Shown here: positions 8,457-24,739 of the stretch, in pieces | How positions within the stretch are numbered: position 1 is the first letter of the stretch | Layout: each line of letters opens with the position of its first letter | Virus record (IMG/VR): IMGVR_UViG_3300047659_000078 | Span: 1 to 24,739 of that record | DNA length: 24,739 nt | Direction: 5' to 3' (one strand) | DNA from: a virus | The notes under the pieces: model-generated | The model's database searches: none | What the model saw: only the letters and a program-made list of their open reading frames with translations | Told to the model about the DNA's origin: nothing | Position numbers and translations under genes: made by a program

Positions 8457-8461
8457 AAAGC

Positions 8462-8520
8462 GGATGAGAGATGAGGGATGAGGGATGAGTTCTCTACCTT
8501 CTCCCCTCGTCTCTCAACCG
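8462..8520. repeat. Family B palindrome between fibre and glycosyltransferase
   Basis: GATGAG-type purine arm (8463-8490) and an imperfect CTC/TCTC pyrimidine arm (8498-8518). It starts just after the fibre stop codon and ends before the RBS AAAAAGGAG (8525-8533) of the next gene. Confidence 0.75.
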
Positions 8521-8538
8521 ATTTAAAAAGGAGCTGCC

Positions 8539-9747
8539 TTGAGAATTTCCATCTTCACGCCGACTCACGACCCGAAATACCTCCACGAGGTTTACGGCAG
8601 CATCAAGGGACAGGATTTCTTTGAGTGGGTGGTGTTGTACAACAATGGCGCGGTCCCGGTAGGTTTCACGGACCCGCGGGTGAAGGAAGTCATTACCGAT
8701 GCAACGGTGCTGGGGGTTGGCCGGTGCAAGCGGGTTGCCTGCGATAACTGCACCGGGGATATCCTCGTCGAGTTGGACCACGACGATCTGCTCGCCCCGG
8801 ATGCCATTGAGGAAATCCGCAATGCTTTTATTGAAGATTGGGAAGTTGGGTTTGTCTATTCCAATGCTCTGATGGCCCGAATGGATGGGGGCGCACATGA
8901 ACGCTTCAATCAGGATCACGGTTGGGAATATCGAAGAACCAATTTCCGGGGACGGCTGCTTGATCAGCCCATAGCCTTTGAGGCGACTCCGGCCAGTGTG
9001 TCCAGGATCTGGTATGCCCCGGATCATGTCCGGGCTTTTAGTAAAGAAATTTACGACCACGTGGGCGGGTATGATTCCGAACTTGAAGTCCTCGACGATC
9101 AGGACCTGATGTGCCGGATGTACCAACTGACAAAGTTCCGCCACATCGACAAGGGGTTGTACGTCTACCGGGTCCACGGCGACAATACGTGGCTCAACAG
9201 GAATCAGCAGATCCAGGAAGGTGTCTGGCCGCTGTACGACAAGTACATCGAACCCATGGCATTGAAATGGGCCGACGATTGCGGGCTCTTAAAGCTCGAC
9301 CTTGGCGGGCGTCTGAACAGGCAAAGCCGGTATATCTCCGTTGACCTGAAGGATGCCGACCAGAACTGCGACCTGAACGGCGAATGGCCGTTTGCGGACG
9401 GCTCGGTCGGAGTCGTCAGGGCATTCGATGTCTTTGAACATCTGAAAGATCCGCTGCACACGATGAAAGAACTTCACAGGATCTTGGCACCGGGCGGATA
9501 CGCGTTTATCCAGGTGCCGTCAACGGACGGACGCGGAGCTTTCCAGGATCCGACACACGTTTCCTTCTGGAACGAGAATTCGTTTCTCTACTACACGGAC
9601 CGGAACTGGTCGCAGTACATCGATACTCCGGTGAGGTTTCAGGCGATGAGGCTGTACACGGCCGGGAAAAACGAGCAACAGGTTTGCTGGACCGTGGCCC
9701 ATCTGGTTAAAGTGGCGGACGGGCTGCCGGGGGTCATAAGGATATAA
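8539..9747 (+). CDS. Glycosyltransferase family 2 - SAM methyltransferase fusion
   Basis: This 402-residue protein fuses two enzymes. Residues 1-235 form a GT-A glycosyltransferase: 'ISIFTPTHD' at the start, the metal-binding DxD in ELDHDD (D80, D82), and an acidic 'LDDQDL' (185-190) in the place of the catalytic-base motif. Residues about 245-402 resemble a class I methyltransferase: 'LDLGG' (253-257) as a shortened motif I, D269 in 'SVDL', 'DVFEHLKDP' (297-305), and 'LAPGG' (316-320). Motif I lacks the usual GxGxG, so SAM binding is uncertain. The start is TTG at 8539 with AAGGAG close upstream. Its place between fibre and acetyltransferase suggests glycan decoration of the fibre or of the host surface (inference). 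A cargo gene for lysogenic conversion is the alternative. Confidence 0.8.
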   Translation: MRISIFTPTHDPKYLHEVYGSIKGQDFFEWVVLYNNGAVPVGFTDPRVKEVITDATVLGVGRCKRVACDNCTGDILVELDHDDLLAPDAIEEIRNAFIEDWEVGFVYSNALMARMDGGAHERFNQDHGWEYRRTNFRGRLLDQPIAFEATPASVSRIWYAPDHVRAFSKEIYDHVGGYDSELEVLDDQDLMCRMYQLTKFRHIDKGLYVYRVHGDNTWLNRNQQIQEGVWPLYDKYIEPMALKWADDCGLLKLDLGGRLNRQSRYISVDLKDADQNCDLNGEWPFADGSVGVVRAFDVFEHLKDPLHTMKELHRILAPGGYAFIQVPSTDGRGAFQDPTHVSFWNENSFLYYTDRNWSQYIDTPVRFQAMRLYTAGKNEQQVCWTVAHLVKVADGLPGVIRI

Positions 9748-9759
9748 ACCGAGATTGAC

Positions 9760-9837
9760 TACCACCCCCGGCCCTTCCTGAACCAGGAGGGGAGGAAAAT
9801 TCCCCCTCCTGGTTCAGGAGGGGGTCAGGGGGTGGTA
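9760..9837. repeat. Family A composite palindrome, copy 5
   Basis: Outer arms ACCACCCCC (9761-9769) and GGGGGTGGT (9828-9836). Inner hairpins use CCTGAACCAGG and CCTGGTTCAGG, so the two halves are also inverted copies of each other, making this the most symmetrical copy. Confidence 0.88.
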
Positions 9838-9850
9838 GATAACATGCATG

Positions 9851-9856
9851 AGGAGG
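9851..9856 (+). promoter_or_regulatory. Ribosome binding site that decides the GNAT start
   Basis: AGGAGG five bases before ATG 9862. An upstream in-frame start at 9832 would lie inside the family A palindrome with no RBS, so 9862 is chosen. Confidence 0.8.
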
Positions 9857-9861
9857 TTGCA

Positions 9862-10323
9862 ATGATCAGACCGGCAAAACTGGACGATATCCCCGACCTG
9901 GTGGGGCTGGGACGGATGTTTCATGCTTCGACGCGGCTGGCCGGGCTGGCGCCCTATGACAAGCACTGCGTAGCCGATCTGCTGTCCGGGATGATCCATT
10001 CGAGAAAATCCGTGGTGCTGGTGATGGAGCGGGACGGCGTTGTCGTGGGCGGCATCTGCGGGGTGATTGTCCCGGCCTATTGGAATCGTTTTGTCTTGAT
10101 CGGCCAGCAGTTCGCGTGGTTCGTTCATCCGGATCACCGGGGGAAGACGTCTTTGAAGCTCTTGGATGGATTCGAGCGGGAATGCATGCAACGGGGAGCC
10201 CGGCTTATTTCGTCGGGCGCCAAGCATGACGCACACTTCGAGGGGATGGATGCCGTGCTGACGCGCCGTGGTTATTTTGAATTGGAAAGTATGTATTTGA
10301 AAAGAGTGACGGGTGAAGGGTGA
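9862..10323 (+). CDS. GNAT-family acetyltransferase
   Basis: This 153-residue protein has the GNAT layout: 'MIRPAKLDDIPDLVGLGRMFH' as the first strand and helix, 'VVLVMERDGVVVGGICGVIVP' as the central strands, 'FAWFVHPDHRGKTSLKLLDGFE' (about 87-108) as the acetyl-CoA binding region with a variant of the RxxGxG/A loop (HRGKTS), and 'MDAVLTRRGYFELESMYLKRV' at the end. It would transfer an acetyl group from acetyl-CoA; the substrate is unknown. The gene sits between the glycosyltransferase-methyltransferase and the gp14-like gene, so an acetylation step in surface or fibre glycan modification is conceivable. A virion-associated role like that of the gp13-like protein is another option. The final residues (VTGEG) and the TGA are encoded in a family B palindrome. 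Confidence 0.75.
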   Translation: MIRPAKLDDIPDLVGLGRMFHASTRLAGLAPYDKHCVADLLSGMIHSRKSVVLVMERDGVVVGGICGVIVPAYWNRFVLIGQQFAWFVHPDHRGKTSLKLLDGFERECMQRGARLISSGAKHDAHFEGMDAVLTRRGYFELESMYLKRVTGEG

Positions 10324-10369
10324 AGGGTTACGGTTTTATTTCACACTTCACTCTTCACATTTCACTCTT
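10302..10369. repeat. Family B palindrome (AAGAGTGAA type)
   Basis: AAGAGTGACGGGTGAAGGGT (10302-10321) and following bases pair imperfectly with TTCACTCTT (10361-10369) and the bases before it. It is a diverged relative of the perfect repeat at 3261-3338. The left arm contains the stop codon of the GNAT gene; the right arm ends before the AGGAGG at 10373-10378. Confidence 0.82.
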
Positions 10370-10385
10370 CCCAGGAGGTTAAGGG

Positions 10386-10883
10386 ATGCCGGCATTACCA
10401 ATAGTAGCAGCGGTTGCGGCGATAGCCGGTACCGGGATGGCTGCGTACAGCTCCATATCGGCCGGGCAAAACGCCCGTTCAACGGCGAATTACAACGCCC
10501 AGGTCGCGCGGACGGCAGCGACCAACGCAGAGAACACCGGCGCCATCGCGGCGGCGGAGCACGATCAGCAGACGCGGCAGATGATCGCCCGACAGAACGC
10601 CACCATGTCGGCATCCGGGTTGGATACCTCTTCCGGTTCTCCGTTGGACATCCTGACCGGTACGGCCGGCATGGGCAAGCTGGATTCGCTCCGGCTCCTC
10701 AACAACGCCCAACGGACCGCTTCAGGCTATCAGGCCCAGGCCGGGCTCGACCTGTTCCAGGGGAATGCGGCCCAGAACGCTGGGTACTTCAATGCCGGCG
10801 GTTCGGTACTGGGCGGCCTCGGGAGTTCCATCACCGGGTATTATGGGACCAGGAATGCCATGGCGCAGGGTGGCGATGATTAG
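10386..10883 (+). CDS. T7 gp14-like internal virion (ejection) protein
   Basis: This 165-residue protein opens with a hydrophobic Ala-rich stretch (residues 5-20) and continues with a helical, Ala/Gln/Asn-rich region, 'NYNAQVARTAATNAENTGAIAAAEHDQQTRQM' (about 35-66), then 'ASGLDTSSGSPLDIL', features shared with gp14-type proteins that are ejected first and form a pore in the outer membrane. Length is somewhat under T7 gp14 (196 residues). The start has AGGAGG (10373-10378) seven bases upstream. It is followed by a gp15-like and a giant gp16-like gene, which reproduces the T7 order gp14-gp15-gp16 and is the strongest support. Sequence resemblance alone is moderate. Confidence 0.78.
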   Translation: MPALPIVAAVAAIAGTGMAAYSSISAGQNARSTANYNAQVARTAATNAENTGAIAAAEHDQQTRQMIARQNATMSASGLDTSSGSPLDILTGTAGMGKLDSLRLLNNAQRTASGYQAQAGLDLFQGNAAQNAGYFNAGGSVLGGLGSSITGYYGTRNAMAQGGDD

Positions 10884-10889
10884 GATTCG

Positions 10890-10911
10890 TAGGGGTGCAT
10901 TGCATGCGCCC
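10890..10911. repeat. Family D short hairpin, copy 3
   Basis: TAGGGGTGCATTGCATGCGCCC folds as GGGTGCA/TGCGCCC with a G-U pair. As at the other two sites, a family A element follows, here nine bases downstream. Confidence 0.6.
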
Positions 10912-10919
10912 AATTGGGC

Positions 10920-11008
10920 TACCACCCCCGACCCCTCCTGAACCAGGAGGGGAGAAAATACACCCAGATTTTCCCCCTCCTAGTTTAGGAGGGGGGCAGG
11001 GGGTGGTA
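10920..11008. repeat. Family A composite palindrome, copy 6
   Basis: Outer arms ACCACCCCC (10921-10929) and GGGGGTGGT (10999-11007). The first inner hairpin has the CCTGAACCAGG core, the second the CCTAGTTTAGG core, so this copy is a hybrid of the two subtypes. Confidence 0.88.
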
Positions 11009-11039
11009 GATCCATCAACCTTGTTAACAGGAGCCCACC

Positions 11040-13016
11040 ATGCAGCCAATCCCGACATACGACAACCCGACCGTGGGGATCGCCCCGGTCGCCACGCCGC
11101 AAGCCACACCGCTCGGACCGGCAGACTTCGGCGCCGGGCTTGGCGCGGGTCTTCAGGATGTCTCGAAGGCCCTGGACGTCATGGCCACGCACTATAACCA
11201 AGCCCAGGTGCTGGGGGCAGTAAATCAGGCCACGGATGCCTATCAACAGCTTGCCCATGACCAGGCCATCGATCCGGATACCGGCCAGCCGAGTGGGTAT
11301 CTGCTGCGCCAGGGAAAGGCAGCGCAAGGGCTGGAGCAAGAGTTGAATGACGATATGCGGGAAAATTTGGACCCTATCCGTGCGGGTCTGGACAACGACA
11401 TGCAACGGGCGGCCTTCGACCAGATCATGTCTAAAAAAATGGATGTATGGCGTACAGCGGTTGGCGAGCATGAGTACAAGGAGAATATGGCACAGAGCGC
11501 GCTTGAGACAAATGCGTCTGTAAACCTGTCTCTGAACGGCATTGCCCAGGATTTCCAAAACCCGGACATGGTCAGCAACTATATCGACACCGGTGTCAAA
11601 TCCATCGTATCCAACGCGGTGCTGAATGGCCAGGATCCTAACGGGGACGTTGTCCGGAATATGGTCTCCCAGTACGAGTCCTCAGCCCACAAGACGGTTA
11701 TCGACTCCCTGATCAAGACCGGCCAGGCGACCACGGCCATGAAGTATTTCGACGAATTCGACAAAGGCGAGCCGGCAACCGACGACGATGGGAATGCCAT
11801 GCCCGGCACCGAGGGTTCTGTGTTCACCAAGCAGGACCGGGAAACGATCATCTCCTACCTGAAGCCGCTTTCCGACGCCCAAAAGGTGGCAACGGCGGCG
11901 GATAGGTATTACCGGCAGGGAGGGAACATCTTCGATGCCATGGGGCATGCAAAGGATGCTTTCCCGGATGATCCGGCGATGCAGCAGGAATTCCGGCAGG
12001 CGGTGATCGGCCGGGCGTCCCAGTATCAATCCGCCGTGGGTGAAGCGGTCAAAAACGCCAACAACACCATCTACCAGGCCATGATCGCCAACCCCGGCTC
12101 TACCCTCGACCAGTTGGCGGCGGATCCGAACGTCACGGACGCGATCAAGACCATGACCACCTATGATGCCCACAGCCTCTCCACCATCAAGGACGCCCTG
12201 GACGCCCAGGCCGGGAAGGCCCAGGGAGATGCCCTCATCCAGGCCATCGATCGGAAGCTGAACGATATGACCGCGGCCGGCCAACATCCTGGCTCCGCCA
12301 TCACCAAGTGGCCGGAGTTCCAGGCCTTGAACGAGTTGGACGCGGAACGGGCGAAACAGCTCCTTGAGCACGAGGTGGGGCAGCAGATGGCCTCTGTCCA
12401 ACACCGCAAGTCCCTGGCCCTGATGGATCAGCAACAGCAGGTCATTGCCCGGCAGCAGAAACAGGCCACGCAGTTCGCCCGGATCATAGGCAATCCGGCC
12501 GCATTGCAGCAAGCAAATCCCATAGGACTTAGGGCCATCGGCGCCATCGATGCCGAACAGGCCTCCATGCTCACGGAATTGCAAAAGAGGAACGCCGATC
12601 AGGCCAAGGGTGTGCCCGTGTCCTGGTCCGCGGATTCGATCAACAAGACGGTCAAGGGTCTGCTCGGGTACAAAGGCACCCTCAGCTCCGATCAGGAGCA
12701 GATCGTGGAGAACGGCGCAGCCAGTTTCGGCACGTACCTGTTTCAGCGGGAGCAGGCCGGAGGGCCGATGAATCCGGTGCAGGTGCAGCAGGTGGCCCAG
12801 GATTGGGTGAAACAGCCTGCCATGATCACGTCGCTTCTGTCCAACACGGCGACCGAGGTGCCGTTGGGCGACGCGTTAAAAACACCTGACCGGTTCCTGG
12901 GGACCTCCGATGCGTACCGTCAGGTGTATGCGGTCGCCAGGAAGAACAATATTCCGCTTACCGTCGGGCAGGCCCGGAAGGCCGCGGCCGGGGTCGTGGC
13001 CGGAGGGATAAGATAA
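11040..13016 (+). CDS. T7 gp15-like internal virion (ejection) protein
   Basis: This 658-residue protein is almost wholly helical and rich in Ala, Gln and Asp, like gp15-type proteins that form the periplasmic DNA conduit together with gp16. Near the start are 'FGAGLGAGLQDVSKALDVMATHYNQAQVLGAVNQATDAYQ' and 'GYLLRQGKAA' (about 27-92), the pattern I associate with this family. 'QQQQVIARQQKQATQFARIIGNP' (about residues 464-486) lies in a long helix. Length is a little below T7 gp15 (747 residues). No signal peptide or membrane helix is seen. CAGGAG (11028-11033) precedes the ATG. It lies between gp14-like and the giant gene; the role is inferred mainly from this order. Confidence 0.8.
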   Translation: MQPIPTYDNPTVGIAPVATPQATPLGPADFGAGLGAGLQDVSKALDVMATHYNQAQVLGAVNQATDAYQQLAHDQAIDPDTGQPSGYLLRQGKAAQGLEQELNDDMRENLDPIRAGLDNDMQRAAFDQIMSKKMDVWRTAVGEHEYKENMAQSALETNASVNLSLNGIAQDFQNPDMVSNYIDTGVKSIVSNAVLNGQDPNGDVVRNMVSQYESSAHKTVIDSLIKTGQATTAMKYFDEFDKGEPATDDDGNAMPGTEGSVFTKQDRETIISYLKPLSDAQKVATAADRYYRQGGNIFDAMGHAKDAFPDDPAMQQEFRQAVIGRASQYQSAVGEAVKNANNTIYQAMIANPGSTLDQLAADPNVTDAIKTMTTYDAHSLSTIKDALDAQAGKAQGDALIQAIDRKLNDMTAAGQHPGSAITKWPEFQALNELDAERAKQLLEHEVGQQMASVQHRKSLALMDQQQQVIARQQKQATQFARIIGNPAALQQANPIGLRAIGAIDAEQASMLTELQKRNADQAKGVPVSWSADSINKTVKGLLGYKGTLSSDQEQIVENGAASFGTYLFQREQAGGPMNPVQVQQVAQDWVKQPAMITSLLSNTATEVPLGDALKTPDRFLGTSDAYRQVYAVARKNNIPLTVGQARKAAAGVVAGGIR

Positions 13017-13149: not shown

Positions 13150-13155
13150 AAGGAG
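13150..13155 (+). promoter_or_regulatory. Ribosome binding site that decides the giant gene start
   Basis: AAGGAG six bases before GTG 13162. An upstream in-frame TTG at 13108 lies within the family C palindrome and has no RBS, so I take GTG 13162 as the start. Confidence 0.75.
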
Positions 13156-13161
13156 TTTCAT

Positions 13162-16100
13162 GTGGATGATTCCGGAGTACTCTCGATCATAAATCAGGTA
13201 ACCAACCAGGGGCAAGCAACGGCCGCCCTCCCGGCGGTGCTGTCCCAGGCGGCCCAGTCCGGCACGACTCCCGACCAGGAAGCCGAATGGCAGCGCCTGG
13301 CCAAGGAAAGCAACGTGCCGGTCGGGCTGATCAGAAACGGCGCTCCAATCAAGCTTATGCAGTTGCAGCAGCAGGGGGCCTCGCTGCCGGCAACCAACCC
13401 GGTCACGGCCCGGACGCTCATGGACCCCGACAATGCCGCGGTGGCCCATGACGATATCGGCACCTTGACCCGGTTGGAAGATCTGGCGAAAAACGGTTTC
13501 GTCGGCCAAGGCAATGGACCGGTATCGGCGTTGCAGTTCGGGACCGCGCGGGATCAGGCCGAGGCAAATTACTTTGCCCGGGAGTACGGGACGAAACCGT
13601 TCCAGGCAATCCAGGGGGGCACGGGCAAGCTGGTCACCAAGCTGGCGTTCCCGGTGGCGGCGGCGGTGGACGCGGTCGACGGCAATGACGATTACAAGGA
13701 ATTCGCTTCGCAGCTCTATGATGCGTTCAGCGATATCCAGAGACAGTCGGCGGCGGCGCCGGAGCAGGGGTTCGGCGGCAAGCTCTTCCGATCCCTGGAG
13801 GAACTGGCGCCCATGGTGCTGTCCGGCGGCGCCGGGCTCGGGAATATCGTGGGTCAGGCGGTCAACGATAAATACGACGATCTGACCGCCAAGGGTGTCG
13901 ATCCGGATACGGCCACGGCCCTGGCGCTCAAGGCCGGCATGTCCGCCTACGCCATGACGAAGCTGCCGTTTGGAGGCACCTCCTTATCGAACAGTCTGGT
14001 CAGGGGCGCCCTGCTTAATCCGGCATTCGGGGTTCTGGACCGCGCCCTGGACAAGGCCGGGTTGAACTATGTGGGATACGACCAGCAGGCTGACGCAATC
14101 AACCTGAAGGATCCGGAGCAGATCGCCCATGATATGGCGCTCGGCCTGCTGTTCGGGGCTCAGCATGCCATCGAAACCGGGAGGCCGATGATGGGAGACG
14201 GCCTGATGGATAGCCTGCTGCCGTTTTATGACCAGTACCAGGCCGGGCGGCGGGCGGATGCGCTCACCGAGATCGGCAGGATCGTCCAGGACAGCAAGGT
14301 CAATAACCGGGCACCTGACCTGGTGCAACAGCATTTGAGCGACGTGGCCGCGGAACATGCCGGTATCGACAATGCCTATGTTCCGGTGAACCGGTGGAAT
14401 GAATTGTTTCAGTCCGCCGGGCTCGATCCTGCTGCGGTAGCCGATCAAATGCTCACCAATCCCGAGGCGTACCACGAGGCGAACAAGACCGGTTCCGATA
14501 TCGTCATCCCATTCGGAGAGTTCACCGGGAAGCTGTCAAGTCTCGATCAATACGGCGAGTTGGTGAAGGATGCGAAGCTGTCCCTGTGGGATACCTCCCT
14601 GCGCGAGGCGGAAGCCCACGCCCAGGCGGTAAGGGACAATGCCGATAACGCCGGCGGCTTCATCGACACGTTGAAAAACATGTTTGCCCGGTCACAGGAA
14701 GCGGTCAAGGGTAACGAGTCGTACGGCAAGGTTTATGATGATCTGGTGGGCCAGCAGTTGGGGATCGGCACCGAACGCAGCACGGCGGAACACAACGCCC
14801 AACTGGTCGCCAATGCCTTCCGGGTCATGGGAGATCGTGCCGGCGTCGATCCTTATGAGTTGTATTCGAACTATAACCTCAAGCTGGCCCGGCCCATGGA
14901 TGCGGCGCCGCCGGATCGGATCAGCGTAGACAGGTCCATTCCCAATCAAAAGAACATTGCCGATGCCAAAGAAAATATTTCAGAACTGTATGATCTGGCT
15001 ATAGGCACAACCAATGAAAACAGGAAAATAGATATTGCCCCGGTTCCTGACTGGAAAGTTAAGGCCGTGGCGGACGCGGTTGCAATAGATGGTTACAGGC
15101 ATCAGGTGGATACGTATTCCATAAGACACACGTTGCGACAGCATGGAGACAGTGTCAGAGAACTAAAAAGCGGGCAATTGCGGATCACAAAGGACGATAT
15201 TCTCTCCATACCTGAAACAGTGCTGTCGCCGGACTCGATTGCCTATGGAGTAAAGAACGGCCGTGGACAGGATTTGATCGCTTCAGTCAAGCGTATGCCG
15301 GATGGGACTTTGTTGCTCGTAGAGGAGGCGAGGACGGGGAGAAAAACATTATCGATGGCGAGTGTAAGGAAGTATCCCGCCGCGAAAGATTCTGATTCAG
15401 TTGCCCGAACCCTGCTTTCTAACGCCCGAAGCGACGGCGGGAATCCTAAAATTAAAATAGTTCAACCAGAGGATAATGTCAAGCGCGACATTATCCGTCC
15501 CGACGGCAATAGTGCAGATTCGAAGTTGTCCGATGTTACTGTTTTTCTCCAGTCGTCTGTCAATCGCCTTGCCGCCGATGGTGTCAGAGAGTTGTATCAA
15601 TCCGGAAAGCCGCCCGTTTCAGAGATCACCGGCAAAGAACTTTCAGATTATCTTGACGCCGACAACGTGATGAAGGAGGCGCGGGCTTATTTCAGGGAAA
15701 ACCTGCAAGACCGGGTGGTTTCCCGCGATGGCTTCGGTGACGTGCGTGTCCGCGCCGTGAAATGGGAAAATGTGAAATGGGCATTAAAAACCAACCTGCT
15801 AAAGGCACAGTTGATACCCGCAATTCCGGACATCATCAAGAACGGCGAATATCTTGGGCGTGAGAACCTCTCCAGGAAGCGCAAAGGCGACGTGGTTGCG
15901 TTTCATTTTTTGGTGGGTGACGTCCTCTTGGATGGTAAGCGGATCAAAACAGGGGTGGCGGTTGCGGAGGATTCCGGGGGGAATCTGATCTACAACTTCA
16001 CCCATGATACGGATGCTCTTTGGGTGAAATCAAAGGCACCACTTTTACCCGGGTCAGAAGCCGGGGGCGCGGAGCCTTCTAGAGGTGACGAATCGTCTGC

Positions 16101-19100
16101 CCTCGGAGAAAATATCCCGAATGCGGGTGATCGCGCCAATATCAAAATCATTGATATCGAACCAAGTGAAGCAACCGCAGCAACCACACCCCCCAACAAC
16201 GACGACCATGTAAAAAAGGTTGTTACCGGTGTCCTTCATTCCGCAATCACCAGAATCGAAACCCCCGCCGACGCCGCCCACATCGCCTTTCCCCTCACCA
16301 AGCGAGCGCAAGAGGCGGCCATTGCCATCGTTACCGACGCAGATGGCAACGTCCTCGGTGTCGTCCAACATTCCACCGGTTCGCTGAACAGCACCATCAT
16401 GTCGCCGAGGGATCTCCTGGGGGTGGTACACGATTTCCCCGGTGCGGCCGAAGTCTGGTTTGCCCACAATCATCCGAGCGGAGATCCCACGACGTCGCGC
16501 ACCGATAGGGAGATAACATCATCTCTGACCGCGTTGCTCGATGGATCGGCGATTAAATCAAGGGGCATGATTGTTGTCGGCCAGGAAGGAGGAGCGGTTT
16601 GGACCAAGGGGAAAGGCGACAGGAGTGAAAGTATATCGCTTAGTTCATTGAACACGGACAAAGAGCGCACCAGGGAAATAAAAACCTATGAAAGGGAGAT
16701 TGTCAAATTACCTTCGTCTAATCCTATTGCCGAACCGGCACATGTGATTAATTACGCCCGTTCGTTTGGGGACGGCGATTCCGGCATTATTATTCTCAAC
16801 TCCCAAATGAAGCCGGTTTCTTTTATCCCCATGTCGCTGGCCGACATGGCCAAGTTGAAAACCGGCGACCCCGCGACAGGTTCATCGTCGATCATGTCCG
16901 CCTTTCACAAGGGGAACGGCGCGTCAATGATCATGATTGTCCCCACCGTTCCCGGCAGCCTGGCCGCGGCACGAAACGTTGCAGCCTTTGGCAATATGTT
17001 GGACGCGCCCCTGGGCGATGTCATCTATGCCGGGAACGGGCTTTCATTCAATAATACCGGCCGCATGCCTGAAATTTTGAACCGCTTTTATCAGGGGGGC
17101 GATGTCAAGCGCGGTTACATCCGTTTCGACAGCACCCGCAATTTCGAGATCGGTCTGCTGAAAGACGCCAACCTCTCCACGTTCATACACGAATCCGGCC
17201 ATTTCTTCACCGAAGTCCTTGGCGACCTGGCCGAACGTCCCGATGCCCCCCGGCAAATCAAGGATGATTACGCCGCCCTGCTCAGGTTTGCCGGGGTGGA
17301 ATCCCGTGACGCAATCCAGGCGGAACACCACGAAAAGCTTGCCAGGGCCTTTGAGGCGTACATCAGGGAAGGGAATGCCCCGAGCGCCGGGATGCACTCC
17401 GTTTTCCAGCGAATGAAAGCCTGGATGATCGGCGTTTACAAGGACATGACCGCCCTCGATGTCCAATTGACTCCGGAGGTCCGGGACGTGTTCGACCGCA
17501 TGCTGGCAACCGATACCGAGATCGGACGGATGCGCGCCGGGGAGGATATGAAGCCGCTCTTTGCCACGGCGGAAGATGCCGGCATGTCCCCGGCGGAATT
17601 CGAACGGTACCGCAATGACGCCGAACAGGCCGGGGAACTGGCAAAGGAACAATTGCTTCGCAAGCTGATGGCCGAGAAGGACCGGGAACAAAAGTCCTGG
17701 TGGAAGGATGAGCGTAACAAGACCTGGGCAGGGGTGGAGGGCGAAGCCAAGGATGATGCGGTCTATCGGACATACCAGGTGCTCACCACCGGCAAGACCT
17801 TCGACGGCCGAGATATGGGCGATATCAAGCTCTCCCGCCCGGACTTGGTGAAGATGTACGGAGAGGACTTCGTCAAGAAGCTGCCCCGTGAGTTCCAGCG
17901 CGTTTATTCCAAGGAAGGCGGGCTGCATCCGGACGCGGTTGCCGAGATGGCCGGGTTCGGTTCCGGTGATGAGATGGTCCGCAAGATGGCCGGGGCGCCC
18001 AAGCTGAAGGATTACGTCAAGGCCGAAACCGACCGGCGCATGCGCGAACGTCACGGCGACATGATGGCGGACGGTTCCATTCATGAACAGGCCTTGAAGG
18101 ATGTGCACAACGACGCCCAGGCCAAGGTCGTGCTGACGGAGCTACGGGCGATCCGGCGCAAGGCCGGGGAGGCCGGCCCGAACGTCAAGGCAACGGAGGA
18201 GAGGGGCACCGCCGATGCCACTACCCGGACGTTCCCGGCGGAAGGACGTGTCAAGGCAGCCCGGGACCGCGCCGGGCGTAACGCCATGCTTGAGTCCATA
18301 CCCCCTGTCCATTTTTTCAGAATGACCGCCTCCGAGACCATGGGGGCGAAACGGGTGGCCGATATCCAGCCGCACCTCTATGCCCATGCCGCCGGGAAAG
18401 CGGCGCAAGAGGCGTCCGAGGCGGCGGCAAAGGGGGATTACCGGAGAGCGGGCGAAGCAAAATACCGGGAACTGCTCAACCATTACCTCTACAGGGAGGC
18501 GGACAGGGCAAAGGATTTTACGGACAAGGTGCAGGCCTACGCGGCCAAGATGGGGTCCGGGAAGGAACTGGGCAAGTTCGTCGCGGGCAGCCAGTTCCTC
18601 GATCAGATCCGGGCGATCCTGGACCGTTACGGTTTCGGCCGGACAGCCAATAAAGAGGCTGACGCCAGGATGGAGTTCCGGGAATCCCTGGACGCTTTCC
18701 TGCGACGCATGAAGAATGAGGAGGGCGTGGAGCTGCCGATTCCGGATGTCATCCGCCAGGAAATCCAGCGCACTAATTATCGTAACCTGTCCATGGACGG
18801 GCTGCGCGGAGTCTATGACTCGGTGCGGATGCTGGAGCATGCGGCGCGGCAGATCACCCAGGTCAACGCCGGGGGGCGCAAGGTGGAGGTCGCCGAGGCG
18901 GCTCTTTCCCTGTCGAATATGCTGCTCCGCTCAACCAGGGGCGCGGCTGACATGGCGCGGGGGAGCGACGGAGCAGGGGCACTTTTGAACCGGGTAAAGG
19001 ATGTCGGCCTGGATATCCCGGTGCTGTTGCCGGAGTTCATGTTCGGGCGCTTCGACGGGCTGAAGAAAACCGGGCCGTGGCACGAATTCATCCGGGACCG

Positions 19101-21354
19101 GTACAACGACGCCGTTGATCACCAGATCGGGCTGCGGGACATGATTTTTCCCAAAATCATGGAGTATGCCCACGGCAATGACATCGACCGGAGCATGGGC
19201 AAGATCCATATCGATTCCCTCAACGCCGATCTGGTCAAGGATGACATTATTGCCATCGCCCTGAACTGCGGCAACGGGAGTAATCTTGACGAACTGATGC
19301 GCGGGGGCCTGCGATTCAGAGGGGATGAAGCACCTACGCCGCTCGATAGCGAGGCCCTTCAGGAGATCCTTACGCATTTGTCGGCCACGGAGATCGACGT
19401 GGTGAACGGCATCTGGAAAACCATCGACCTGCTCAAGCCGGAGGCCGCCGAGTCGGCGCGCAAACGTACCGGGGTCGAGCCGAACTGGATCGGGGCCCGG
19501 CCGATGGAGGTCAAGAACGGGACCCTTGAAGGGGGCTACTATCCGGTGAAATACGATCCCCGCTACGGCGTGGACGGAGAGACTCCAGCCGATTCCTCGA
19601 TGCTCGACCGGATGTTCAACAAGTACGCCACCAGCACCACGCGCCAGGGGTACCTGAAGGAACGTGGCGCGTTCGCGGTTCCCCTGTCGCTTGATTGGCA
19701 ATCCATCGTCTCCCGTCACCTTGACGAGGTGATTACCGAAATCTCCCATGGGCAATTTGTCACCGATACGCGGCGCTTGCTCAAGCGCCCCGAGGTCAAG
19801 GACGCCTTCAATGACCGCCTGGGTTCCGCGTATTACAAAAACCTGCTGGATTGGGTCGGATATACGGTCAACCAAGACGACGTATCGCCGGAGGTCTCGG
19901 ACGATATCGAAAAGTTCCGCAGGCAGATCAGAAACAATATGAGCACCTATGCGCTCGGCTTCAAGGTGGCCAACGCTCTCAACGAGATGGCCGTCGGGAT
20001 CCCGCCGATGATGAAGCAGGTAAAGATCGCAAGTGCATTCAAGGGCATCATGCAGTTCATGCGCAATCCGGTGGAAGCAACAAGGTTCGCAACCCAGGCC
20101 GGCGAATACATGCGAAACATCGATAAAAGCCTTGACCGGGACATTGCCCAGGCTTTACATCCCCTGGCCGGGCCTCACGGCGTTGCCGACGATATCCGCC
20201 AATGGTCGATCGCGGCCCGTACATTCATACAAAAGATCGGCGTCGTCATGGCCTGGCACGCCGGGTATATCGACGCCCAGGAACAAGGGCTTCAAGGCGA
20301 CGCCGCGGTCAGGAACGCCGATTCAGTCTGCCGCATGACGCAGGGGACGGGCCGGGGCGGGGATGCCTCCGTCGCGCCGCGCGACACGGACATGAAGGAA
20401 TTGGCTCGGTTCATCGGCCCGACGATGAAAGACTACCTTGGCCGGGCTGGGATCAATCCGGACAGCATGAACTATGAGGAAAAAAAGGCGGTTTCTGCGG
20501 CGCTAGGAGGTAAAGATCTTTATCAAGATCACAAGGCTTGGCACAACGTACAAAAGGCTCAAGAATGGTTGGCAGTTCTGCAGCCCACTGTTAGCGACCG
20601 AATAGCCAAAATTCTTAAGCCTTCTCAAAACATTAGACCATTTTCCAATGATGCTGTCAAGCAGTCTGGCGAACAGGTTTATTACCAATCCGTTTCCCAT
20701 GCGTCGGATAGGATTGCTACGGATATTGATCCCGCTACGGTATCGATGAGGAAATATCCCGCCACAACTCGTGCTGAAAGTATTCTTTCCAGCCTTGGCC
20801 CCAACGTCCGAAACGATGGCAGGGTATCTGATTTACAGGTAGTTGAATCTCCTGTTTCTGTCAAGGCGAACGATGCCAATTTCCAGGCCGGGCTTGCCAC
20901 CCTGCTGGCCGGGTACGTGGCCAATGCAATGATCTCCGGGATAACGAGCGGGAAAGAGACAGATAAACTCGACAAGCTGCCGTCATGGATCCTGGCGCGG
21001 CTCACGCTTGGCCTGTTCGACGGTTTCCCGCTCATGCGGGATATGGACGGGTATGCTGAAAGCGGGATAACAGGCGGTAAGGGGAATGAGACGAGACCGT
21101 CGTCCGTTCTCCAGTGGAGCAAGGATGCCGTTGACGGCTTCACAAAAACCGTAGAGGCAACAACCGGCGACGGGGGATGGAACAGGACGGTTATGCATGA
21201 CGCAAAGACTGCGGGCGGAGCAACGGGTTTGCCGGCCCAGGCCGGTTCCACGATTGGCCGGTATATCTATGACGTGCTGTCCGGTGACTATACCCCGGAG
21301 CATCCCTGGTCGCAGGTGATAATGAAGCGGATGAGAGATGAGGAAGACGGATGA
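13162..21354 (+). CDS. Giant polyvalent ejection protein (T7 gp16 position)
   Basis: This 2730-residue protein, about twice T7 gp16, follows gp14- and gp15-like genes and is probably ejected into the cell. Modules in order: 1-590, helical, with 'VNRWNELFQSAGLDPAAVADQ' as in other polyvalent proteins; about 640-740, a PBECR-like nuclease candidate with 'IRHTLRQHGD' (H656, H661, D663), 'IPETVLSPD' and 'GTLLLVEEAR'; about 829-953, an LPD3-like domain; 1024-1148, a RadC/JAMM metallohydrolase with an exact H1102-x-H1104-x7-S1112-x2-D1115; 1203-1296, a degenerate JAB-like stretch without HxH; 1327-1453, a zincin with H1343-ESG-H1347 and E1391 or E1398 as third ligand; then long helical regions, and a hydrophobic segment at 2574-2597. 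I see no N-terminal lytic transglycosylase like that of T7 gp16. GC content drops sharply near 14940 and 20470-20880. The last residues (KRMRDEEDG) come from a repeat. Confidence 0.8.
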   Translation: MDDSGVLSIINQVTNQGQATAALPAVLSQAAQSGTTPDQEAEWQRLAKESNVPVGLIRNGAPIKLMQLQQQGASLPATNPVTARTLMDPDNAAVAHDDIGTLTRLEDLAKNGFVGQGNGPVSALQFGTARDQAEANYFAREYGTKPFQAIQGGTGKLVTKLAFPVAAAVDAVDGNDDYKEFASQLYDAFSDIQRQSAAAPEQGFGGKLFRSLEELAPMVLSGGAGLGNIVGQAVNDKYDDLTAKGVDPDTATALALKAGMSAYAMTKLPFGGTSLSNSLVRGALLNPAFGVLDRALDKAGLNYVGYDQQADAINLKDPEQIAHDMALGLLFGAQHAIETGRPMMGDGLMDSLLPFYDQYQAGRRADALTEIGRIVQDSKVNNRAPDLVQQHLSDVAAEHAGIDNAYVPVNRWNELFQSAGLDPAAVADQMLTNPEAYHEANKTGSDIVIPFGEFTGKLSSLDQYGELVKDAKLSLWDTSLREAEAHAQAVRDNADNAGGFIDTLKNMFARSQEAVKGNESYGKVYDDLVGQQLGIGTERSTAEHNAQLVANAFRVMGDRAGVDPYELYSNYNLKLARPMDAAPPDRISVDRSIPNQKNIADAKENISELYDLAIGTTNENRKIDIAPVPDWKVKAVADAVAIDGYRHQVDTYSIRHTLRQHGDSVRELKSGQLRITKDDILSIPETVLSPDSIAYGVKNGRGQDLIASVKRMPDGTLLLVEEARTGRKTLSMASVRKYPAAKDSDSVARTLLSNARSDGGNPKIKIVQPEDNVKRDIIRPDGNSADSKLSDVTVFLQSSVNRLAADGVRELYQSGKPPVSEITGKELSDYLDADNVMKEARAYFRENLQDRVVSRDGFGDVRVRAVKWENVKWALKTNLLKAQLIPAIPDIIKNGEYLGRENLSRKRKGDVVAFHFLVGDVLLDGKRIKTGVAVAEDSGGNLIYNFTHDTDALWVKSKAPLLPGSEAGGAEPSRGDESSALGENIPNAGDRANIKIIDIEPSEATAATTPPNNDDHVKKVVTGVLHSAITRIETPADAAHIAFPLTKRAQEAAIAIVTDADGNVLGVVQHSTGSLNSTIMSPRDLLGVVHDFPGAAEVWFAHNHPSGDPTTSRTDREITSSLTALLDGSAIKSRGMIVVGQEGGAVWTKGKGDRSESISLSSLNTDKERTREIKTYEREIVKLPSSNPIAEPAHVINYARSFGDGDSGIIILNSQMKPVSFIPMSLADMAKLKTGDPATGSSSIMSAFHKGNGASMIMIVPTVPGSLAAARNVAAFGNMLDAPLGDVIYAGNGLSFNNTGRMPEILNRFYQGGDVKRGYIRFDSTRNFEIGLLKDANLSTFIHESGHFFTEVLGDLAERPDAPRQIKDDYAALLRFAGVESRDAIQAEHHEKLARAFEAYIREGNAPSAGMHSVFQRMKAWMIGVYKDMTALDVQLTPEVRDVFDRMLATDTEIGRMRAGEDMKPLFATAEDAGMSPAEFERYRNDAEQAGELAKEQLLRKLMAEKDREQKSWWKDERNKTWAGVEGEAKDDAVYRTYQVLTTGKTFDGRDMGDIKLSRPDLVKMYGEDFVKKLPREFQRVYSKEGGLHPDAVAEMAGFGSGDEMVRKMAGAPKLKDYVKAETDRRMRERHGDMMADGSIHEQALKDVHNDAQAKVVLTELRAIRRKAGEAGPNVKATEERGTADATTRTFPAEGRVKAARDRAGRNAMLESIPPVHFFRMTASETMGAKRVADIQPHLYAHAAGKAAQEASEAAAKGDYRRAGEAKYRELLNHYLYREADRAKDFTDKVQAYAAKMGSGKELGKFVAGSQFLDQIRAILDRYGFGRTANKEADARMEFRESLDAFLRRMKNEEGVELPIPDVIRQEIQRTNYRNLSMDGLRGVYDSVRMLEHAARQITQVNAGGRKVEVAEAALSLSNMLLRSTRGAADMARGSDGAGALLNRVKDVGLDIPVLLPEFMFGRFDGLKKTGPWHEFIRDRYNDAVDHQIGLRDMIFPKIMEYAHGNDIDRSMGKIHIDSLNADLVKDDIIAIALNCGNGSNLDELMRGGLRFRGDEAPTPLDSEALQEILTHLSATEIDVVNGIWKTIDLLKPEAAESARKRTGVEPNWIGARPMEVKNGTLEGGYYPVKYDPRYGVDGETPADSSMLDRMFNKYATSTTRQGYLKERGAFAVPLSLDWQSIVSRHLDEVITEISHGQFVTDTRRLLKRPEVKDAFNDRLGSAYYKNLLDWVGYTVNQDDVSPEVSDDIEKFRRQIRNNMSTYALGFKVANALNEMAVGIPPMMKQVKIASAFKGIMQFMRNPVEATRFATQAGEYMRNIDKSLDRDIAQALHPLAGPHGVADDIRQWSIAARTFIQKIGVVMAWHAGYIDAQEQGLQGDAAVRNADSVCRMTQGTGRGGDASVAPRDTDMKELARFIGPTMKDYLGRAGINPDSMNYEEKKAVSAALGGKDLYQDHKAWHNVQKAQEWLAVLQPTVSDRIAKILKPSQNIRPFSNDAVKQSGEQVYYQSVSHASDRIATDIDPATVSMRKYPATTRAESILSSLGPNVRNDGRVSDLQVVESPVSVKANDANFQAGLATLLAGYVANAMISGITSGKETDKLDKLPSWILARLTLGLFDGFPLMRDMDGYAESGITGGKGNETRPSSVLQWSKDAVDGFTKTVEATTGDGGWNRTVMHDAKTAGGATGLPAQAGSTIGRYIYDVLSGDYTPEHPWSQVIMKRMRDEEDG
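14940..15640 (+). other. AT-rich module insertion in the giant gene (nuclease region)
   Basis: My hand count gives 48 G/C of 120 bases (40%) for 14941-15060, against 40 of 60 (67%) in the line just before. The segment starts around residue 593 and carries the PBECR-like module and its tail. The abrupt shift suggests that it was acquired separately from the host protein. Confidence 0.6.
20470..20880 (+). other. AT-rich module insertion in the giant gene (C-terminal region)
   Basis: Bases 20521-20700 contain 79 G/C of 180 (44%) by hand count, against 38 of 60 (63%) at 20281-20340. The segment encodes residues about 2437-2573 and ends just before the hydrophobic stretch. It contains an RKYPA...NxRxDG motif shared with the nuclease module. 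Confidence 0.6.
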
Positions 21355-21398: not shown

Positions 21399-21424
21399 AG
21401 ATTTTAAAAAGGGAGGTGTTAAAA

Positions 21425-22093
21425 GTGGCAGATTTTAATGCAGCTCACCAGCAGGTTATGGGAAACGAGGGAGGGTACGCCAACAACCCGGCCGACGCCG
21501 GAGGAGAGACCTACAAAGGGATTGCCCGCAAGTTCTGGCCGCAATGGGGAGGGTGGAAGCTCGTGGACGGGGTCAAGGCCAATACCGTCGAGCCGCCTAC
21601 ACCCGGCACCCAGGCGTATCAGAACTATGTGGCGTACCTGAACCGGTGCCTGGCCGGGCTCACATCCCTTCAGCAGTTGGTGCAGGACTTCTATAAAAGG
21701 AACTTCTGGGACAAGTACCGGCTGTCCGAGGTCAACGATCAGGCCGTTGCAACCTGGATCCATGACCACGTGGTCAACGGCGGCGGCCGGGGCGCCATGT
21801 GGATACAGGAAGCGGTGGGGGTGAAAGCGGACGGGGCAATCGGGCCGCAAACCATCCAGGCGATCAACGCAGTCGATCCGAAAGCACTCCTCCGGAAAGC
21901 CTGTGACGTGGCGGCCTTCTACCGGCTGGACCGTGCCTCTACCGACCCTTCACAGGTCCGGTTCCTTCCGTCGTGGCTCCGGCGCGACGGGGTATCGGCT
22001 GAAGAGATCCAACAAGTCATGCAGGCCGCCAGGGACGGACTGACCTATGACAAGGTGGCCGCACTCAAAAGGCAGATGAGGGATGAGGGTTGA
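21425..22093 (+). CDS. Endolysin, GH108-type muramidase with peptidoglycan-binding domain
   Basis: This 222-residue protein should cleave peptidoglycan for host lysis. The catalytic motif EGGY has E15 as the probable acid, and is followed by 'NNPADAGGETYKGIA' (20-34), the signature of the GH108 (secretion activator/ZliS-like) family. 'DFYKRNFWDKYRLSEVNDQAVATWIHDHVVNGG' completes the catalytic domain, and 'AVGVKADGAIGPQTIQAINAVDP' (about 135-157) starts the PG_binding_3 domain with 'CDVAAFYRL' and 'FLPSWLRR' after it. There is no signal peptide, so a holin is needed. I choose GTG 21425 because GGGAGG (21411-21416) lies eight bases upstream; GTG 21416 overlaps that site. The C-terminal KRQMRDEG is read from a family B palindrome. 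Confidence 0.9.
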   Translation: MADFNAAHQQVMGNEGGYANNPADAGGETYKGIARKFWPQWGGWKLVDGVKANTVEPPTPGTQAYQNYVAYLNRCLAGLTSLQQLVQDFYKRNFWDKYRLSEVNDQAVATWIHDHVVNGGGRGAMWIQEAVGVKADGAIGPQTIQAINAVDPKALLRKACDVAAFYRLDRASTDPSQVRFLPSWLRRDGVSAEEIQQVMQAARDGLTYDKVAALKRQMRDEG

Positions 22094-23359: not shown

Positions 23360-24739
23360 TCAGAACTCGGCGTGGCGCGGCGTGCGCGGGAACGGGATCA
23401 CGTCCCGGATGTTGTCCATGCCGGTGAGGTACATCACCAGCCGCTCGAAGCCCAGGCCAAAGCCGGCGTGGGGGCAGCTCCCCCAGCGGCGGCTATCCAG
23501 ATACCACCAGAGCGGTTCCTGGGAGATGTTCATCTCGGCCATACGTGTTGTCAGCCGGTCGAGACGTTCTTCCCGCTGGCTGCCGCCGATGATCTCGCCC
23601 ACCTTGGGGACCAGCAGGTCCATGGCGGCCACGGTGCGGCCGTCGCTGTTTTGCCGCATGTAGAAAGCCTTGATCTCTTTGGGGTAGTTGAGGATGAAGA
23701 CCGGCCCCCCTACCACCTGCTCGCTCAGGTAGCGTTCGTGCTCGGTTTGCAGGTCCAATCCCCATGCCACCGGATAGGAAAACGCCGTGCCGGACCGCTG
23801 GAGCCGTTCGATGGCGTCACCATAGTCCATGCGGACGAAGTCGGCCTCGGCTACCTGACGGATACGCTCCAGGAGCCCCTTTTCGATCTGCTTGTCGAAA
23901 AACGCCATGTCGTCGGCACATTCTTCCAGGGCGAAACGGCACAGATAGCGGATGAATTCCTCGGCCAACTCGGCGTCGTCGGCCAGGTCGGCAAAGGCCA
24001 TCTCCGGCTCGATCATCCAGAATTCGGCCGCATGTCGCGGCGTGTTGGAGTTTTCGGCACGGAAGGTGGGGCCGAAGGTGTAGATGTCGGAAAAGGCCAG
24101 GGCAAGCAGTTCCCCTTCCAGTTGGCCACTGACCGTGAGGCCGGTTTTCTGGCCGAAAAAATCCTGGTCGAAATCAGGCTGCCCCGCCACCAGCGGCGGC
24201 ACGACCGCATCCAGGGTGGTCACACGGAACAACTCGCCGGCCCCCTCGCAGTCGCTGGACGTGATGATGGGCGTGTGGGCGTAGAGAAAATCCCGCTCGG
24301 CGAAGAAGCGGTGAACGGCCTGGGCCAGGCGCGAACGGAGACGGAACACGGCGCCAAGGGTGTTGGTCCTCGGCCGCAGGTGGGCGATGGTGCGCAGGTA
24401 TTCGAACGTGTGCCGTTTTTTCTGCAACGGATAGGCCTCGTCGGCCTCGCCGATGATCTCGACGATGGTGGCGTGCAGTTCCCATTGCTGCCCGGCCGCC
24501 GGGGATGCCATCAGCGTGCCGTGCACACGCAGGGCCGCGCCGGTGCCGAGACGGCAGACGGAGTCGAAGTTTGCCAGCCCCTGGTCGGCCACCACCTGGA
24601 GCCCGGCCATGTCAGAACCGTCGTTCAGCGTGACAAAGGCCACTTCCCTTGAGGCGCGCACCGAGCGCACCCATCCTGCAACCACGCATTCCCGGCCGCT
24701 TGCGCCGTTGGCCAGAAGTGTCCGTATCCGAGTTTTCAT
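23360..24739 (-). CDS. asnS: Asparaginyl-tRNA synthetase
   Basis: This 459-residue class II synthetase charges tRNA-Asn with asparagine in the cytoplasm. Residues 1-110 form the OB-fold anticodon-binding domain ('CVVAGWVRSVRASREVAFVTLNDGS'). The catalytic core starts with 'HLRPRTNTLGAVFRLRSRL' and 'HTPIITSSDCEGAGELFRV', which separates AsnRS from AspRS. Motif 2 is 'FRAENSNTPRHAAEFWMIEPEM' and motif 3 'GFGLGFERLVMYLTG' near the C-terminus. Length agrees with E. coli AsnRS (466). The ATG complement is the last three bases of the window, so its promoter lies outside. It is the only gene on the - strand and is convergent with the prophage. A large + strand frame opposite it is a shadow. Confidence 0.95.
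   Translation of the reverse strand: MKTRIRTLLANGASGRECVVAGWVRSVRASREVAFVTLNDGSDMAGLQVVADQGLANFDSVCRLGTGAALRVHGTLMASPAAGQQWELHATIVEIIGEADEAYPLQKKRHTFEYLRTIAHLRPRTNTLGAVFRLRSRLAQAVHRFFAERDFLYAHTPIITSSDCEGAGELFRVTTLDAVVPPLVAGQPDFDQDFFGQKTGLTVSGQLEGELLALAFSDIYTFGPTFRAENSNTPRHAAEFWMIEPEMAFADLADDAELAEEFIRYLCRFALEECADDMAFFDKQIEKGLLERIRQVAEADFVRMDYGDAIERLQRSGTAFSYPVAWGLDLQTEHERYLSEQVVGGPVFILNYPKEIKAFYMRQNSDGRTVAAMDLLVPKVGEIIGGSQREERLDRLTTRMAEMNISQEPLWWYLDSRRWGSCPHAGFGLGFERLVMYLTGMDNIRDVIPFPRTPRHAEF

Follow-up and report, generated by a model that had tools for sequence, protein, structure and literature searches.

A giant phage polyvalent protein at the T7 gp16 position carries a RadC-type JAMM domain beside a probable degenerate JAB domain

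What does a protein of 2730 residues carry at the place of an ejection protein in a podovirus, and which of its domains could act inside the host? The question is raised by the stretch of DNA analysed here (the window), the 24.7-kb IMG/VR virus record IMGVR_UViG_3300047659_000078 (24,739 nucleotides), in which one open reading frame (ORF) extends from 13162 to 21354. An earlier note on this DNA had described the product as a giant ejected protein with peptidase and nuclease-like modules, and its coordinates and length for the ORF were exact by translation. The giant is of a known kind, that of the phage polyvalent proteins (Iyer et al., 2017), and belongs to PHROG 9880, the family of Bbp10 from Bordetella phage BPP-1. 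We consider it reasonably probable that the giant is packaged and ejected, and that it joins a fixed delivery frame to exchangeable enzyme-like cargo as the third and largest of three ejection proteins. This prior description of polyvalent proteins, the large family, the swappable slot, and a second JAB-like domain were absent from the earlier note.

The phage polyvalent proteins described by Iyer, Burroughs, Anand, de Souza and Aravind (2017; PMC5512222) are very large products of late genes near virion genes that combine unrelated enzymatic domains (zincin metallopeptidase (MPTase), PBECR, and LPDs) and are predicted to be injected. The window's giant is alike in these respects. Several unrelated domains of the polyvalent set are present in its single polypeptide, namely LPD22, PBECR3, LPD3, and a RadC-like JAB domain, all over the curated cut-offs in the Pfam scan of the 2730 residues, together with a zincin. 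The giant and its parts are as follows, with residue numbers in brackets.

13162-21354 (+): giant polyvalent protein, 2730 aa, GTG start (translation with stop; PHROG 9880, E 3e-274; homologous start in the sister record L007)
13258-13494 (+): LPD22 (33-111), part of the frame (Pfam; 45/45 family N-termini scanned)
14179-14895 (+): conserved N-terminal frame region (340-578), common to phages such as UFJF_PfDIW6, Carin1, and CP2
14896-16197 (+): variable cargo slot (579-1012), with other modules in sister phages
15082-15390 (+): PBECR3 predicted RNase domain (641-743; Pfam PF18812, 58.4 bits, cut-off 30)
15664-15993 (+): LPD3 (835-944; Pfam PF18798, 57.9 bits, cut-off 27)
16258-16590 (+): RadC-type JAB (1033-1143) with E1051, H1102, H1104, S1112, and D1115 (Pfam PF04002; invariant residues; structural match to 2qlc, Z 15.6)
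16627-17028 (+): second conserved domain (1156-1289), a probable degenerate JAB whose catalytic residues are gone (profile comparison, model)
17089-17601 (+): zincin-like metallopeptidase (1310-1480), HESGH at 17188-17202 (conservation; model helix order; profile match to the N4 virion RNA polymerase)
17602-20436 (+): conserved mostly helical region (1481-2425), part of the frame (model; 69 BFVD structure matches, E <= 0.001)
20890-21300 (+): C-terminal conserved segment (2577-2713; conservation in relatives)

The PBECR-like candidate RNase of the earlier note is recovered by Pfam as PBECR3 at 641-743 (58.4 bits), its activity being predicted. The segments that the note had singled out for checking were assigned as well: 640-740 and 1024-1148 hold the proposed PBECR and RadC-type JAB domains, and 829-953 is LPD3.

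The conserved frame (LPD22, zincin, and the helical region of about 950 residues) carries a slot whose cargo differs between close relatives. LPD22 was found in all 45 of the family N-termini scanned, ART-PolyVal in 8, LPD3 in 5, and PBECR3 in 3. PBECR5, MuF-C, GGDEF, GNAT, zeta toxin, and other domains are scattered among the same 45. The giant of L007 exhibits 86% identity to the window's giant over residues 1-578 and about 77% over 934-2456, and in its slot PBECR1 replaces PBECR3 and LPD3 is absent. The giant of L094 (84-89% identical) contains PBECR3, PBECR1, LPD3, and RadC. That of L009/L098 contains PBECR3, LPD3, and RadC, that of L263 contains PBECR1 and RadC, and that of L264 contains LPD3, PBECR1, and RadC. 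Bbp10 of BPP-1 contains LPD22 and PBECR1. Among the 174 aligned giants, RadC was found in 10 rows; it lies close to the zincin in the clade of the window and near residue 300 in L039 and L078. A relative with PBECR3, LPD3, and the RadC module is present in Oryzomonas japonica Red96, a cultivated lysogen candidate. In the closest relative (L094:2787-9635), the open frame starts immediately ahead of PBECR3, and the N-terminal part of the frame was not found upstream of it within the locus, which may reflect breakage, rearrangement, or a genuine split.

The giant is under purifying selection. The ratio of nonsynonymous to synonymous substitution rates (dN/dS) is below 0.56 in every computable comparison, with values of 0.14-0.25 for the zincin and 0.20-0.31 for RadC, and LPD22 compared with that of L007 gives 0.09.

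The earlier note had also reported an exact JAMM motif, H1102-x-H1104-x7-S1112-x2-D1115, in a RadC-type domain. The motif is present (HNHPSGDPTTSRTD begins at H1102 of the giant protein) and falls within the RadC-like JAB domain (1033-1143; Pfam 59.5 bits, E 3.9e-16, cut-off 22.1). A fifth JAMM residue that was missing from the note, E1051, completes the set. E1051, H1102, H1104, S1112, and D1115 are invariant across 8 diverged RadC copies with identity down to 30-39%. In RadC, the JAMM glutamate follows the first helix, as judged from the archaeal JAMM fold. D1084, which aligns to the conserved PRE-I/V-F glutamate of RadC, was considered as a lost catalytic glutamate and was ruled out by the RadC topology and the invariant E1051. 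In shuffles of the giant protein, the JAMM pattern alone arose in 0.5% and HExxH in 5%; a chance origin of the motifs is ruled out because of the profile scores and the family-wide conservation.

The JAB domain is RadC-type. A model of region 590-1289 based on 8 sequences has a low overall predicted local distance difference test score (pLDDT 45), with about 65-80 in the RadC part. The predicted RadC fold matches Chlorobium RadC (2qlc) with Z 15.6 and a root-mean-square deviation of 2.1 over 121 aligned residues, and both have the JAB fold and the JAMM residues. The score of full-length cellular RadC (UPF0758 equivalog) was not reached (PRK00024, 49.8 bits, cut-off 180).

The same evidence bears on the deubiquitinase-like activity that the earlier note had suggested. 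The RadC module could be a peptidase that removes ubiquitin-like conjugates; the giant, once ejected, would then weaken defences that rely on conjugation, such as CBASS and the Bil/Bub operons. The JAMM set is complete, the PBECR and RadC domains lie within a conflict-type protein, and the next structural match after RadC is the bacterial Bub JAB BubCD (Z 8.9), followed by archaeal JAMM1 (Z 8.1) and, with lower scores, the deubiquitinases Rpn11 and BRCC36. However, a Z near 8 is given by any JAB fold and the match to RadC is far better (15.6 against 8.9 for the best deubiquitinase-type fold). In addition, the 2017 survey argues that RadC JAB domains are without the groove for a ubiquitin tail (PMC5512222). 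The RadC-type part of the suggestion stands, its deubiquitinase-like part is weakened, and a deubiquitinase role is not favoured. We judge this explanation to be unlikely.

Residues 1156-1289, directly after RadC, have no Pfam match and were compared with RadC by profile alignment (81 and 69 sequences). The two domains are colinear over the whole length, and in the second domain the HNHPSG loop is deleted and the catalytic residues are gone. On one alignment the match has an E of 5.6e-5 (reversed control 0.16), and after trimming 1.4e-3, and is not significant when 4 or 8 sequences are used. Its score was reached by 0/300 column shuffles, 0/20 unrelated segments, and 6/300 block shuffles. The low-confidence model of 590-1289 exhibits a similar order of strands and helices in both domains. 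The second domain is probably a degenerate JAB, and it is called no more than probable because 6 of the 300 block shuffles reached the score.

IMG/VR was scanned with the RadC alignment, and 80 loci were returned. The scan demanded the string V[WY][FL]xHNHP[ST], hence the counts are minimum values that favour intact motifs, and not every contig need be phage. All 80 RadC copies lie in ORFs of at least 1006 residues. The full JAMM pattern is kept in 77/80, and the second domain follows RadC in 73/80 with a median gap of 17 residues. The zincin core of the window's family is present in only 13 of the 80 loci, thus the RadC pair occurs on different frames. For 7 loci not belonging to the core family, ten flanking genes were inspected; clear virion matches turned up in only 2 (L185 and L198). 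Two RadC domains, about 500-650 residues apart, were observed in the giants of L218, L222-L224, L226, L227, and L249; the second JAB-like domain follows both copies in L226 and only the second copy in the others.

The RadC tandem was not found in 50,697 phage records, where all that matched were 11 RadC-like stretches lacking the second domain, and the module was not found in the isolated relatives of the giant (the group of Bbp10, AF_016, and ORF24). The best matches to RadC proteins of plasmids and cells span the first domain only and lack the second, JAB-like one. In the 168 matching plasmid records, the best places listed cover only the RadC part, except in Pseudomonas sp. KHPS1, where the giant, zincin-containing protein of a conjugative plasmid has the RadC pair in an unannotated N-terminal extension. 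In the conjugative plasmid giant L257:8791-14220, the RadC pair lies outside the annotated start and the open frame extends about 1 kb upstream.

Comparing these findings with the 2017 survey, the RadC domain is common in giants of uncultivated viruses, whereas the survey does not place it in phage giants and assigns it to polyvalent proteins of conjugative elements only (PMC5512222). In the window it belongs to a phage giant and is followed by the second JAB-like domain, of which the parts of the survey consulted make no mention. The pair may be an undescribed delivered module common to the giants of phages and conjugative elements, in which a catalytic RadC-type JAMM domain is joined in cis to a degenerate JAB, like the active/inactive MPN pairs Rpn11-Rpn8 and BRCC36-Abraxas, and which moves between delivery frames as a unit. 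We regard the case for and against this proposal as evenly balanced.

The HExxH zincin motif (H1343/H1347) of the earlier note is HESGH at 1343-1347, and it is conserved throughout the family. The alignment comprises 174 giant ORFs from phages, prophages, and IMG/VR, of which 171 rows cover the site. The H, E, and H of HESGH are present in 171/171, and E1391 and E1398 downstream are nearly as constant, in a core that is only about 30% identical among the aligned giants. The model of 1290-2440 (63 sequences, mean pLDDT 78.9) exhibits two strands, the HExxH helix, further helices, and then about 950 mostly helical residues. HESGH lies in one helix and the downstream glutamate on a later one (model residues 49-68 and 98-114), as in zincins. 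The model matches 69 predicted viral proteins (BFVD, E <= 0.001). No significant PDB match was found for the whole 1151-residue core model, and sequence searches likewise gave none; one chain of oligoendopeptidase F aligns to residues 1-158 of this model with a weak Z of 4.0, below significance. The zincin profile picks the HExxH region of the N4 virion RNA polymerase (vRNAP) with an E of 2.8e-4 on the segment and 4.8e-3 on the whole 3500-residue protein. At L144, the conserved core is divided between two frames that overlap (7215-9299 and 9236-11653).

The giant could also be mainly a structural ejection protein whose enzyme-like domains are inactive relics or rigid spacers. What the whole family conserves is the helical frame, the catalytic residues are lost from the second JAB-like domain, and an HExxH domain without known activity is kept in N4 vRNAP. 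This explanation appears improbable, as the H, E, and H of the zincin are unbroken across the aligned rows, nearly all RadC copies retain the JAMM pattern, the dN/dS values of both domains are low (0.14-0.31), and cargo domains are exchanged, not decayed.

Delivery is argued from gene position. The podovirus late region in the record consists of a major head protein, tail proteins, a gp13-like protein, a tail fibre, a gp14-like protein, a gp15-position protein, and the giant. The PHROG matches upstream of the giant are to head, tail, and internal virion proteins, and the giant is therefore encoded among late virion genes. The features next to the giant are as follows.

10386-10883 (+): gp14-position internal virion protein, 165 aa (PHROG 418, E 8e-36)
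11040-13016 (+): gp15-position ejection protein, 658 aa, with an SLT transglycosylase in relatives but not here (Pfam, alignment)
13150-13155 (+): Shine-Dalgarno AAGGAG, 6 nt 5' of GTG 13162 (sequence)
21416-22093 (+): GH108 muramidase with peptidoglycan-binding domain, probable endolysin (domain match)

The sister record L007 has ATG at the codon equivalent to GTG 13162. The T7 gp16 position that the earlier note gave to the giant is borne out by the order of the gp13-like protein, the gp14-like protein (PHROG 418), the 658-aa gp15-position protein, and the giant, and the same gene order is found in UFJF_PfDIW6, Carin1, BPP-1, CP2, and AF. Bbp10 (BPP-1), AF_016 (Pseudomonas phage AF), and ORF24 (Xanthomonas phage CP2) have a homologous core with 29-35% identity, likewise follow two internal virion genes, and have LPD22 at the N-terminus where scanned. 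The trio of 165 aa, 658 aa, and 2730 aa resembles T7 gp14-gp15-gp16 and N4 gp52-gp51-gp50. In N4 too, the giant (gp50, vRNAP) is the third protein after 16.5-kD and 66-kD partners, and the trio is likewise without a wall-cutting domain. Both the C-terminal part of vRNAP and the window's giant exhibit an HExxH domain followed by a helical region of roughly 1000 residues. In contrast, N4 carries an RNA polymerase where the window's giant carries PBECR3-LPD3-RadC, and the profile match is limited to the zincin segment. All three N4 proteins are established to be ejected (PMC12633501). By its gene position and by analogy with T7 and N4, the giant is likely to be ejected as well.

A role at lysis instead of entry would fit the annotation of relatives in Caulobacter, Nostoc, and Microcystis phages as 'lysis protein' or 'lysin' and the GH108 gene next to the giant at 21416. 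However, no peptidoglycan-cutting domain was found in the giant by Pfam, the gene order is that of internal virion proteins, and the neighbouring endolysin would perform lysis. We find a lysis role very improbable. The GH108 protein may be the endolysin, and it is the sole product of a wall-cutting gene recognised in the record. Relatives in GenBank carry the names lysin, lysis protein, or crystallin beta/gamma motif protein, to which the domains found give no support.

From the missing N-terminal lytic transglycosylase, the earlier note had suggested that another domain or gene serves for cell-wall passage. T7 gp16 has 1318 aa and an N-terminal lytic transglycosylase. The latter domain is stated in PMC11440229. 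No such domain was found in the giant by Pfam or anywhere in the record, and it was not lost from the giant: in the relatives AF, BPP-1, Carin1, and UFJF_PfDIW6 the SLT transglycosylase belongs to the gene preceding the giant, and the lineage of the window has lost it there too. In BPP-1 and AF the SLT is part of the structural lysozyme genes, whereas the homologue in the window, like those in L007, L009, and L011, aligns at the start and is without the SLT segment. No SLT was found in the window's record or in these three sister records; the records may be fragments. The PHROG label 'endolysin' of 11040-13016 was considered as a transglycosylase source and rejected, the SLT segment being absent by Pfam and alignment. 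Designed pentatricopeptide repeats, obtained as PDB phmmer matches of the same protein, are a chance match.

For the favoured reading of a delivered frame with exchangeable cargo, the following course may be proposed. The giant would be packaged in the head and ejected after the two smaller proteins. The fixed frame (LPD22, 340-578, zincin, and the helical region) is probably needed for packaging and envelope passage, and its helical part may form part of an envelope channel. The zincin might cut the chain and free the cargo into the cytoplasm, or might aid packaging. The exchangeable cargo after residue 578, here PBECR3, LPD3, and the RadC-type JAMM domain with its JAB-like partner, would then act, ahead of phage gene expression, on host defence or takeover; PBECR3 would cleave RNA, and the RadC module would hydrolyse a nucleic-acid, nucleotide, or peptide substrate.

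Several points weigh against this course. No sequence match was found between the giant and solved ejection proteins. The PhiM1 ejectosome chain (Z 6.8) and the T7 core chain (Z 6.2) rank 2 and 7 among structural matches on the same stretch, within the noise range for helical models, hence the likeness to T7 gp16, shared in cluster position, is only suggestive in structure. No publication showing ejection and no virion proteomics was found in the literature for any member of the family, and the BPP-1 study identified only two head proteins. N4 vRNAP, the nearest analogue, is packaged unprocessed according to the 2017 survey (PMC5512222), so self-cleavage of the giant is not a given.

The closest relatives are found in genomes of Oryzomonas and other Geobacteraceae. 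An asparaginyl-tRNA synthetase gene occupies the right end of the record (23360-24739, - strand), and copies 88-94% identical adjoin phage genes in L009, L094, and L263; the record thus probably includes a bacterial flank. If 23360-24739 is host chromosome, as is probable, the prophage would end somewhere from about 22.9 to 23.36 kb. The ejection cluster also contains, between its tail fibre and gp14-like genes, a glycosyltransferase-methyltransferase fusion and a GNAT acetyltransferase (8539-10323, + strand).

A protein delivered together with the first DNA is active ahead of all phage gene expression, at the stage where an infection is decided by restriction, CRISPR, and other defences, and few such delivered domains have been assayed. 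If the proposal for the RadC pair is true, the pair would serve specifically as an early effector, one half of it being a pseudo-enzyme scaffold. The pair could also shed light on the function of RadC domains, a matter of continuing dispute. The family offers an ordered test of such delivery, with one conserved frame, a slot that varies between close relatives, and a cultivated lysogen candidate.
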